Source of the DNA: an uncultured Clostridia bacterium
GTDB lineage: Bacteria > Bacillota > Clostridia > Christensenellales > UBA1242
DNA length: 45,881 nt
Direction of reading: 5' to 3'
Assembly (NCBI GenBank): GCA_947629745.1
Contig: CANREZ010000001.1
Coordinates: 79,300 to 125,180 of the forward strand
This document shows, one piece after another, positions 37,964 to 43,103 of the stretch. The number at the start of each line of letters is the position of its first letter. The first letter of the stretch is position 1. The translations under genes were made by a program, and so were the position numbers. The notes under the pieces were generated by a model. It worked only from the letters and a program-made list of their open reading frames with translations. It was not told the origin of the DNA and ran no database searches.

Positions 37964-39082
37964 TTATCTTTCTGCTTCGTCTTCAACGACATTTTGTACT
38001 GTTAGACCAAAGTTAGCAGCAAAATCTTTTACACTTATGTTGTAGAATTTAGTATCATCTGCCTCAGTAACTTGGGATACAGTAATGTTGTTGTCGGTCA
38101 AGAACTTTGCCATATTGCCTTTGTTATTTAGATATGCCTCAACTGTCTTTGTTAGGGTATTGGTACCATACTTTGAGAAATCCAAATTCATATTGACATA
38201 TGCATATGGCTCAGCTACACCTTCGTTGTTCTTTTCAGCAATGATTTTGAATATCAATTTGCCTTGGTCGTTACGGCCGTGCATGACAAGCACATTGGTA
38301 TTAGATACATTTGCATTTGTATCATTGAATAATTGTTGTACGAGGTCGTTATTGTCGGCATTTTCGAATAACTCACTTGCCTTGCTGTAGTTTAGTTTCT
38401 TTACAGTTGAATAATTGCTTGGTTTGAAGTTATCACTTAGAGCACTTGTGATCTCAGCATTATTTGTATAGTTAGACTCTTCGATGCTACCAATTATATT
38501 CTTGACATTAGTCTTTTGTGCGTCAGATAGATTAAACTGTGCAAGTGCGATAGCACTAGTTATATTCTCATTTGACCCCACACTGATGTAGTAGGTGAGA
38601 GCAGAATTTTCTGCATCGATATCTGATAGGACCACATTGTCAGCCTTAATTACTTTACCGACAGTGTTACGATATAGATCACTTCCCCACTCTTGTAGTG
38701 ATGCATTTAGAGGGATAGATTGCTCTTCACTAGAGCTAGTAGGATTATTCTCGCTAGAGCCAGTAGAAGAATTGTTATCAGTACTTGTGAAACCTTCACT
38801 TGAACTACTAGAATTAGTGTCATATGATGAGTTACCAGAATCTTGTGTCGGACTTCCTATCACAGTACCTGTACCAGACTGTGTGCCATTATCTCCACTT
38901 ACATGCACATCGACATTTGTGTCATTCGATGATTGGGAAGATGAGTCAGTACCGCTATGATTACCGGTCACAATTTGTGCAGCAAGTGGATTTTGATTAT
39001 CCAATGCTTTTATGCCTACAGCAATCGCGCCTGCAGCACCAAGGAAAGAGCACGCAGCTATTATTAAACGTTTAATTGCCAT
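37964..39082 (-). CDS. Exported or anchored protein with a Ser/Asn-rich linker, unknown
   Basis: 372 residues. A basic N-terminus plus one hydrophobic segment (about 5-24, L-I-I-A-A-C-S-F-L-G-A-A-G-A-I-A-V-G) acts as signal peptide or anchor. No clear lipobox or cleavage motif is certain. Residues about 40-125 are a linker rich in Ser, Asn, Thr, Gly and Asp, typical of wall-spanning regions. The remaining 245 residues form a soluble, acidic domain with alternating hydrophobic positions that I do not recognise. AGGAGG and a consensus promoter precede it, suggesting strong expression. It could be a cell-surface protein. No LPXTG sorting signal is present. Confidence 0.75.
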   Translation of the reverse strand: MAIKRLIIAACSFLGAAGAIAVGIKALDNQNPLAAQIVTGNHSGTDSSSQSSNDTNVDVHVSGDNGTQSGTGTVIGSPTQDSGNSSYDTNSSSSSEGFTSTDNNSSTGSSENNPTSSSEEQSIPLNASLQEWGSDLYRNTVGKVIKADNVVLSDIDAENSALTYYISVGSNENITSAIALAQFNLSDAQKTNVKNIIGSIEESNYTNNAEITSALSDNFKPSNYSTVKKLNYSKASELFENADNNDLVQQLFNDTNANVSNTNVLVMHGRNDQGKLIFKIIAEKNNEGVAEPYAYVNMNLDFSKYGTNTLTKTVEAYLNNKGNMAKFLTDNNITVSQVTEADDTKFYNISVKDFAANFGLTVQNVVEDEAER

Positions 39083-40881: not shown

Positions 40882-40910
40882 TTGACGAGTGGGACTTTCG
40901 GTGATACAAT
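40882..40910 (+). promoter_or_regulatory. Promoter of the exported-protein trio
   Basis: TTGACG (40882-40887), a 17-base spacer, and TACAAT (40905-40910) with an extended TG. The first ATG is 27 bases downstream behind TAGGAGG. Confidence 0.82.
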
Positions 40911-40937
40911 AAGTTGTAATTATTATAGGAGGCAACT

Positions 40938-41108
40938 ATGAACTCAATTGTGAAGAAATTTACTATAGTTACGATTATATGTGCAGTGCTCGTAGTTTTC
41001 TTTTTAGGTTTTGGTGCTTACTATCGATATTATACACTAAACGCCGAAATGGATGCATCAAACGAAGAAGTGAATGCATGGATTACGGGCAATGATGAGG
41101 CAAAGTAA
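40938..41108 (+). CDS. 56-residue anchor-only paralogue (trio member 1)
   Basis: M-N-S-I-V-K-K-F-T-I, then a hydrophobic helix (about 9-29), A-Y-Y-R-Y-Y, and a short acidic tail (M-D-A-S-N-E-E-V-N-A-W … G-N-D-E). It is a miniature of the N-terminus of the third gene, which reads A-M-D-E-S-N-R-E-I-Q-Q-W … G-N-D-E before its Pro/Asn linker. The stop falls where that linker would begin. It has an excellent ribosome-binding site (TAGGAGG) and promoter, so it is likely expressed. It may be a truncated duplicate or a functional micro-membrane protein. The next gene starts two bases after its stop. Confidence 0.7.
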   Translation: MNSIVKKFTIVTIICAVLVVFFLGFGAYYRYYTLNAEMDASNEEVNAWITGNDEAK

Positions 41109-41110
41109 TT

Positions 41111-42091
41111 ATGAACTGTAAGAAATTTACTATATTATCTTGCATTACGCTTTTTGTTTTTGTTATATTCTATGCTTTTTCTGCTTACTACACTCATGTG
41201 AAATTGGGTGAGTTAAATGCAAAAGCTGTGGAAGAGGCAAAGGTCGAGTGTGATGAATATAATAGGAATAACGCACAGGGTGATGGATCTACTGAAGATG
41301 GTGGAACAAATCCAGATGTCGACCCGTCTGAGTCATTCCCAACATTCCTTAGTATATTCAATAACGCACTAGACTATATGAATAATGCTGAGGGATATGT
41401 CACTAGGATTTCTCCGGGAATGGGGAAGTTTAATGCTAAGGTCAATCCACATGTAGCAGGTATTGATAATATAAGTTTACTGACAACTGTGGAAGTGGAG
41501 CAGATACGTGACAAATCCGGTAAGACTCTATTAAATTATTATCAGCATGGGCAGATGCCTCCTGAGTATGCAGATTTCTTCGATAACTCGACATACTTCC
41601 GTGCAGTGCAGGATAAGGACCAATATTATTACTACAAGACTATGAACAAAGCCGAGCTCAATGGTTCACTTGAGGATAAGTGGATTAAGCTCAGCAAACG
41701 TCAATATCTAGAGCAATTCGCTCAATATCCAGATCAATTCTTATACGATATCAACGCAGATACCATTGACTACATATCTTATTACAATTTGCCAAAATCT
41801 AATGGTCGTGGATATTCCGCTAAGATTAGGCTAAAGAGTGAGGGTGCCAAAGGATATGGCGCTATGCTATCCAAGATTGCAGACTTCTACAATATGACTA
41901 TAGACAATATTGATATAGAATTCACATTTGACGCAAAAGGACATTTCACTACTATGCGCGTTAATGAGACTATGACGATGAAATATTCCGTCGTAATCCT
42001 TGGACAAAATATTACAGCCGACATCAGTACGGCAAACCAATATTATATGACTTTCCAAGATTTCAATGGAACAATTAATGAAAAAATATAG
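41111..42091 (+). CDS. Membrane-anchored exported protein (trio member 2), unknown
   Basis: 326 residues. The N-terminus K-K-F-T-I-L and hydrophobic helix (about 7-27) end in A-Y-Y-T-H-V, as in its neighbours. A Gly/Asp/Asn/Pro-rich linker (about 50-75) and an extracellular domain with mixed beta-type pattern follow. Shared with member 3 are V-E-Q-I-R-D-K-S-G-K-T (E-Q-Q-K-D-K-A-G-N-T there), an aromatic Y-Y-Y-Y-K-T segment, and I-E-F-T-F-D-A-K-G-H-F near the end (I-S-W-K-F-D-A-Y-G-Y-L there). The layout resembles surface lipid- or cell-wall-interacting folds (LppX/LolA-like), but only by general pattern. There is no lipobox cysteine at the expected place. Confidence 0.75.
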   Translation: MNCKKFTILSCITLFVFVIFYAFSAYYTHVKLGELNAKAVEEAKVECDEYNRNNAQGDGSTEDGGTNPDVDPSESFPTFLSIFNNALDYMNNAEGYVTRISPGMGKFNAKVNPHVAGIDNISLLTTVEVEQIRDKSGKTLLNYYQHGQMPPEYADFFDNSTYFRAVQDKDQYYYYKTMNKAELNGSLEDKWIKLSKRQYLEQFAQYPDQFLYDINADTIDYISYYNLPKSNGRGYSAKIRLKSEGAKGYGAMLSKIADFYNMTIDNIDIEFTFDAKGHFTTMRVNETMTMKYSVVILGQNITADISTANQYYMTFQDFNGTINEKI

Positions 42092-42105
42092 ATTAGAGGA
42101 CTAAG

Positions 42106-43050
42106 ATGAAAAGCATTGCTAAGAGATTCAACGTAATAGGCATAATCACCGTGATAGCCTTTGTGCTATTTGCGGGAGTTTTTGCTGCTTACAGGAATAG
42201 TGTGCTTAGCACTAGTAGAGACTCAGCAATGGATGAGAGCAATCGTGAGATCCAGCAATGGGATACCGAACACAATATAGGGAACGATGAGAATAGCACG
42301 AATCCTAGTAATCCTAATAATCCAAATGGTGACACATCAAGCACCCCTACCGTTATGCCAAATTTCAAAAACTTTGATGAGATATATAATAATTGGGAAG
42401 GACTACTCGAGCAGAGTGAGTCATTCAAGATGAGCACAACAGGTAATGCCGACGTCACGGGCAAACTCGGACCAATCGGCGCATCTATCAATAGACCTAT
42501 GGCTATGGAGCAACAGAAGGACAAAGCAGGCAACACTTATTTTGTCCTAAAGTTTAATGGTGGTGAAATATTAGGTTATAGTGCTAATGCTAACAATAGA
42601 TATTATTGGGACAACAAAGCACAAAGATTTAGAATAGGTGAGTGGGAATTCAATTACAACTATACTGAGGCTGAATATATGAGGAAGTATGGTTGGAAAG
42701 TTGGAACAACCATGCTGTACAAAGTAAAGAACAATGTGACCAAGGTTGAATCATTTAATAAAACCGCAACGGGATACGAGGCCGTAACAGTGCTAAATAA
42801 TAGAGCAGGACAAAACTTGATCCGATTCCTAGAGAAAATGGTGATGGTCGACCTCAGTGTGAAATACAATACTTGCAAGATTTCTTGGAAGTTTGACGCA
42901 TATGGTTATCTGCAGGAATACACTGCAGAGGAGACTTATGATCTAAATATGCACTTCGGACCAGTATCTGGTACAGCATCGGTAAAATCCGTGTTGCGCA
43001 CTGTTGTCCGTGGATTCAATAGCAATGTCACGATCATTCCTAGCGTGTAA
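42106..43050 (+). CDS. Membrane-anchored exported protein (trio member 3), unknown
   Basis: 314 residues with M-K-S-I-A-K-R-F, a hydrophobic helix (about 9-29), the acidic neck D-E-S-N-R-E-I, then an N-P-S-N-P-N-N-P-N-G linker (about 66-80) and a domain that parallels member 2. Conserved points are E-Q-Q-K-D-K-A-G-N-T, an aromatic N-R-Y-Y-W-D-N segment and K-F-D-A-Y-G-Y-L near the C-terminus. AGAGGA precedes the ATG, 14 bases after the previous stop. A strong terminator follows, so the three genes form one operon. Probably tethered outside the membrane, partner unknown. I do not recognise the family. Confidence 0.75.
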   Translation: MKSIAKRFNVIGIITVIAFVLFAGVFAAYRNSVLSTSRDSAMDESNREIQQWDTEHNIGNDENSTNPSNPNNPNGDTSSTPTVMPNFKNFDEIYNNWEGLLEQSESFKMSTTGNADVTGKLGPIGASINRPMAMEQQKDKAGNTYFVLKFNGGEILGYSANANNRYYWDNKAQRFRIGEWEFNYNYTEAEYMRKYGWKVGTTMLYKVKNNVTKVESFNKTATGYEAVTVLNNRAGQNLIRFLEKMVMVDLSVKYNTCKISWKFDAYGYLQEYTAEETYDLNMHFGPVSGTASVKSVLRTVVRGFNSNVTIIPSV

Positions 43051-43067: not shown

Positions 43068-43103
43068 AAAAAATGACACCCGATTATAGGTGTCATTTTT
43101 TTT
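43068..43103 (+). terminator. Terminator of the trio operon (also usable by gyrA)
   Basis: AAAAATGACACC pairs with GGTGTCATTTTT around an 8-base loop, with a run of eight Ts on the + side and As on the other. It lies between two convergent transcripts. Confidence 0.9.

Follow-up and report, generated by a model that had tools for sequence, protein, structure and literature searches.

Two membrane-anchored proteins with a predicted LolA/LppX-like fold and a small anchor-only companion in an operon of an uncultured Christensenellales bacterium

The window, meaning the whole 45,881-nt stretch of DNA analysed here (positions 79,300 to 125,180 of contig CANREZ010000001.1, assembly GCA_947629745.1), comes from an uncultured gut Clostridia bacterium of the Christensenellales whose genome is small, at 0.97 Mb, and 95% complete. 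Between serS and gyrA, a single operon of three genes, M1, M2 and M3, stands alone, with gyrA convergent with M3. It possesses a good promoter, three ribosome-binding sites (each read from the sequence) and a strong terminator, all located as a preliminary description had stated. The promoter is of the sigma-A type with an extended -10 element (40882..40910, +; TTGACG-17-TACAAT, TG before the -10), and is followed by AGGAGG (40927..40932, +), the ribosome-binding site of M1 and, in agreement with that description, the strongest of the operon. M1 (40938..41108, +) is an open reading frame for an anchor-only protein of 56 aa with a basic start, one transmembrane segment (TM) and an acidic neck. 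Its stop lies 2 nt ahead of the ATG of M2 (41111..42091, +), an ORF for a membrane-anchored protein of 326 aa, and the likely M2 ribosome-binding site, GAGG, falls within the last M1 codons (41097..41100, +), an arrangement that suggests translational coupling between M1 and M2. M3 (42106..43050, +), preceded by AGAGG (42095..42099, +), follows M2 after a gap of 14 nt and encodes a membrane-anchored protein of 314 aa. The intrinsic terminator in the gap between M3 and gyrA (43069..43100, +) has a 12-bp stem, a U-run, an MFE of -15.7 kcal/mol and a z of -5.3; this hairpin came from separate folding, and the automatic terminator scan reported none. Codon-usage scores place M2 and M3 around the 25th percentile of the training genes, and M1, which scores 0.014 per 55 codons in frame and negative in the other five frames, just under the 5th percentile (0.030). 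On the other side of serS, an exported protein with an N-terminal TM and a long low-complexity linker (window 37964-39082, -) has only about 23% identity with the protein at the syntenic position in the sister and no family match.

Judged by sequence comparison, all three genes share a common ancestor. The homology of M2 and M3 runs the length of the two proteins (BLASTP E = 3e-8; profile-profile E = 1.8e-13 over 268 columns), and M1 is 45% identical to the first 62 residues of M3, with a Z over TM-preserving shuffles of 10.0 against M3 and 5.5 against M2. The kinship initially put forward for the three members is thus upheld by BLASTP, profile-profile and shuffle tests alike, and the landmarks named with it, EQxxDKxGxT, a Tyr-rich stretch and FDAxG, are present. 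In the structural models, M2 is divided into a TM-neck helix (residues 2-55), a linker (about 56-78) and a half-barrel (about 79-316), and M3 into one TM-neck helix (2-56), a linker (about 57-89) and a half-barrel (about 90-302). M1 nearly equals the M3 helix alone: the last block aligned between them is GNDE, M3 residues 59-62, bearing out the claim that M1 stops where the M3 linker begins, and its ORF ends after the neck, without the extracellular half-barrel domain. The alignment clearly marks M1 as an anchor-only copy homologous to the M3 anchor. Inspection of M2 and M3 found no lipobox cysteine at the end of the N-terminal TM in either sequence. M1 shares with FtsL and DivIC a short cytoplasmic end, one TM and a charged extracellular helix, but its faint matches to FtsL/DivIC profiles (E about 0.05; 13.8 bits against a curated cut-off of 28.9, and 13.6 against 42.45) fall far below the cut-offs, and the clear homology of M1 is with M3. 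An FtsL/DivIC assignment was rejected, as was a spanin or holin identity, for which only faint composition matches were obtained.

Within the genus, comparison is with one other genome, that of the only sister species. Its serS-gyr interval carries orthologues of M2 and M3 at 36% identity each; M2 and M3 thus evolve fast, since the two species share 75% identity in serS and 81% in gyrA. M1 was not found in this interval, where the promoter (TTGACT-17-TAAAAT, spacing kept) drives M2 directly and M2 has its own ribosome-binding site directly behind it. An open frame of 73 aa at C22 of the sister was discarded by eye as a different TM coiled-coil ORF. Nor was a short relative found upstream of a full-length M gene in any of 29 other clusters, the sister and 28 more. 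M1 is therefore known from one genome only and is itself not conserved. The comparison of the two loci would fit either a loss of M1 in the sister or its gain in the lineage of the window, by insertion behind the promoter and ahead of M2; gain is favoured because the other M clusters have no M1. With the sister and the 28 clusters lacking M1, the initial suggestion of a surface complex in which M1 is a small membrane adaptor is not supported as a conserved arrangement for this operon. Duplication with truncation, the other initial suggestion, is the better fit, yet M1 has not decayed.

The preliminary description had set a decaying full-length gene against its own reading, and M1 does not have that appearance. 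Its frame and ribosome-binding site are intact, and its comparison with M3, in which dS is saturated as in all comparisons made, gives a pN of 0.37 against a pS of 0.85; the corresponding stretch of the M3 orthologues gives 0.47 and 0.87. As a one-pair argument rather than a branch-specific one, this argues that M1 has been protein-coding for most of its life, since an unconstrained M1 branch would have raised pN further. The main rival to a packing or coupling role for M1 is passive persistence, in which M1 would be the by-product of a partial tandem duplication, a harmless leader ORF that carries a ribosome-binding site, and only M2 and M3 would matter. The restriction of M1 to one genome, its low codon-usage score and a similarity to M3 as high as that among M3 orthologues in the same region are all consistent with such an origin; the intact frame and a pN that, against saturated pS, is far from neutral are harder to reconcile with it, as is the conservation of anchor-only genes elsewhere, described below, and we consider it somewhat unlikely. 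M1 might also act mainly in cis, its translation opening the M2 start and setting the dosage of M2 and M3, with a dispensable peptide. Such a function would suit the short distance between the M1 stop and the M2 ATG, the M2 Shine-Dalgarno within M1 and the placement of the strongest ribosome-binding site on M1, but in the sister M2 is served by a site of its own behind the promoter, and coupling alone would not preserve neck residues common to M3, which makes a purely cis-acting M1 doubtful.

Beyond the genus, relatives of these proteins are numerous. A profile of M3 orthologues finds them in 24 of the 309 genomes of the window's family and a profile of eight sequences in 96 of the 309, and a profile of 31 sequences extends the count to 166 of 396 genomes and 54 of 143 genera of the order; a single-sequence scan of genome contigs with M3 gave no match. 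In the window's family the relatives are mostly anchored proteins of 290-430 aa, and in other families of the order most matches lie inside open frames of 1,000-6,000 aa, the family thus taking the form of single anchored proteins of ~320 aa, tandem pairs or trios, and modules in giant ORFs. Tandem pairs or trios occur in seven genera (g1, g25, g30, g66, g21, g28 and g60); in g60, full-length pairs or trios directly follow leuS in seven genomes (L250-L255, L259). In a tree of 31 sequences, the orthologues of M2 and those of M3 fall into two supported groups, each joined by a different copy from G031 (83/85 and 87/88). Since each lineage has its G031 relative, the pair is old, and M2 and M3 probably parted before the genus arose. 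The g66 and g28 pairs look like separate duplications in the same tree, whose deep branches are weak. This genome also has a fourth M gene, of 316 aa, followed by a gene for a 1,999-aa exported protein (L249:1651-8665, contig C11), and a similar pairing with a giant protein is seen in G031 (324 and 1,996 aa) and G065 (295 and 1,884 aa). No family in Pfam, NCBIfam, PHROG or PADLOC, nor any among PDB sequences, covers the M proteins, in keeping with the initial statement that no described system of this form was known. Among 31 members scanned against Pfam and NCBIfam, none exceeds a curated cut-off (DUF6612 reaches E 0.03 with one member), no PDB sequence matches at E up to 10, and no sequence-profile link to LolA or LppX was found. 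By these searches the family is unnamed and new to databases; within the order, made up of gut Clostridia, it is both old and widespread.

Structure prediction provides a link that sequence profiles do not. AF2 models of M2 and M3, built from the same seven alignment rows, have mean pLDDT values of 75 and 63.8, the latter modest. With VIA, the M3 model matches LppX best (Z 10.6), followed by LprG and LprF, and the M2 model LprG best (Z 10.3), followed by LppX and LprF; over both models the ranges are 10.2-10.6 for LppX, 9.4-10.3 for LprG and 8.5-10.6 for the three together. RseB, LolA and MucB rank lower (M2 against RseB Z 8.4, against MucB 6.3), and unrelated barrels such as OpcA reach 8.4-8.8, only 1.5-2 under the best matches at about 10. 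Foldseek alone is less clean, led by microsomal triglyceride transfer protein, LprG and LolA for M3 and by an ApoB chain and MucB for M2. Unrelated folds for M2 and M3, named at the outset as an outcome that would count against the shared plan, were not obtained, the same three proteins leading the VIA matches of both. The case for a cupped half-beta-barrel with covering helices of the LolA/LppX type is good but not certain, and this fold stands as a prediction from the models.

Comparison with known proteins of this fold helps to define what M2 and M3 may do. In LolA-fold domains, the concave face accommodates acyl chains or peptides. The best fold matches, LppX, LprG and LprF, share with the predicted M2 and M3 structures a cupped antiparallel sheet with helices, but they carry a lipid anchor where M2 and M3 are TM-anchored with a long neck, they show no sequence-profile match and only 5-9% identity in structural alignments, and the M2 and M3 genes have no adjoining partner transporter. 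LprG binds and transfers triacylglyceride (PMC4709180), and the cavity of MucB senses lipids, upon which the anti-sigma factor is released (PMC7400510). RseB and MucB, LolA-fold regulators of sigma-E/AlgU, resemble the family in fold and in that a member in g9 lies divergent from a sigma/anti-sigma pair. They differ in having a second C-terminal domain; moreover, the g9 anti-sigma factor is RsgI-like and not RseA-like, the window's operon includes no sigma/anti-sigma genes, and no g9-type sigma was found in the genome. GerS is a LolA-like clostridial lipoprotein of Clostridioides difficile that activates the amidase CwlD (PMC8496864). Like M2 and M3 it is clostridial and extracytoplasmic with a LolA-like half-barrel, but it is a lipoprotein that belongs to sporulation and acts on CwlD, it is not known to occur in tandem copies, and it is set beside M2 and M3 by description only. 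By analogy with GerS, M2 and M3 could be enzyme activators or surface-protein chaperones rather than lipid carriers or sensors. Members adjoin LRR or giant surface proteins in g25, g59, g6, g31 and g13, as does the fourth copy here, which would suit such a role, but the operon includes neither an enzyme nor a surface-protein gene and M2-M3 stand alone between serS and gyrA, so we regard it as unlikely. A carrier or sensor role is preferred. By fold the proteins are of a known kind; for the sequence family, the TM-anchored tandem and the anchor-only derivatives, a limited literature search found no description.

Anchor-only genes are also present in other genera. In five species of g14, proteins of 61-66 aa with the same TM-neck plan adjoin pepF, each with a ribosome-binding site (L042:3926-4111, L043:10248-10448, L044:9803-10000, L094:9635-9832 and L041:9754-9942). 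They are under coding constraint, as indicated by pN values of 0.27-0.41 against pS of 0.69-0.92. Compared with the full-length g9 and G031 anchors they give TM-preserving Z values of 2.5-12, and a profile of the five, run over 309 genomes, has its best matches outside g14 in these anchors (E 8e-9 to 4e-6). These small proteins also have a C-terminal SGxTNxESK-like motif. Short family-profile matches outside g14 (e.g. G312, G021, G224) were set aside for unconvincing gene contexts. In g9, a full-length M gene is divergent from a sigma factor and its RsgI_M anti-sigma. The place of that gene is taken by a 53-aa anchor-only ORF in G249 (g14; L274:3134-4346) and by one of 64 aa in G008 (g8; L281:913-2484), each divergent from a sigma gene whose product shares 57% (G249) or 54% (G008) identity with that of g9, and serS follows at the G008 locus, as in g9. 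The anti-sigma factor is 475-480 aa long in g9, 193 aa in G008 and 97 aa in G249, the latter two without an RsgI_M match, and it is possible that anti-sigma and M ectodomains were lost together at these loci. Read by eye, the intergenic regions have TATTGAC-N17-TANAAT in common, standing ahead of the M-type or anchor-only gene in three further genera. No M-type gene was found upstream of this genome's LRR/RsgI_M operon. The genome also encodes an orphan RsgI_M membrane protein of 268 aa (L236:1393-2199, contig C4), flanked by the genes for an LRR-like surface protein and a guanylate-kinase-like product, without an adjoining sigma gene; in g14 and g25, similar orphan RsgI_M proteins have M-type or anchor-only genes as neighbours.

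The recurrence of such genes outside the window's genus leaves room for a genuine role of the anchor by itself. The best reading of these sequences is that the anchor has been retained alone several times in the family. One version, which we hold to be quite improbable, is that the TM-neck anchor works as a unit by itself: LolA-fold members tied to an RsgI-type anti-sigma factor would repeatedly have been reduced to it, and it would then serve as a small membrane partner or decoy, either for full-length members or for the anti-sigma factor.

The explanation proposed here, that M2 and M3 are TM-anchored ligand-binding or sensing paralogues of the LolA/LppX fold accompanied by a retained duplicate anchor, has, taken as a whole, about an even chance of being correct. 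An uncleaved N-terminal helix would fix M2 and M3 in the cytoplasmic membrane, continued outward by the acidic neck, a flexible linker and the half-barrel, whose concave face, next to the membrane, most likely binds a hydrophobic or peptide ligand in a carrier or sensor function. By analogy with other proteins of this fold, they probably act on the outer side of that membrane in ligand binding or sensing. An RseB-like ancestral role is attractive from the g9 arrangement, which recalls RseB and MucB, and the sensor idea is not directly transferable here, since no g9-type sigma was found in the genome of the window or of its sister. M1 would be a lineage-specific duplicate of the anchor part, placed between the old promoter and M2, and kept as a small membrane protein that probably packs against the M2 or M3 anchors and whose translation is probably coupled to that of M2.

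For these bacteria, in which no such system was found described, the finding points to an unnamed, order-wide extracytoplasmic family with a LolA/LppX-like predicted fold, one of whose members may be an RseB-like sensor beside an RsgI-type anti-sigma factor. The family also provides a domain annotation for a region, now unannotated, in many of the giant surface proteins that gut Clostridia encode. Repeated retention of the anchor alone would amount to a natural experiment on what an anchor does without its domain, and, if the anchor works as a unit by itself, M1 would be the case in which anchor and full-length proteins are found in one operon.
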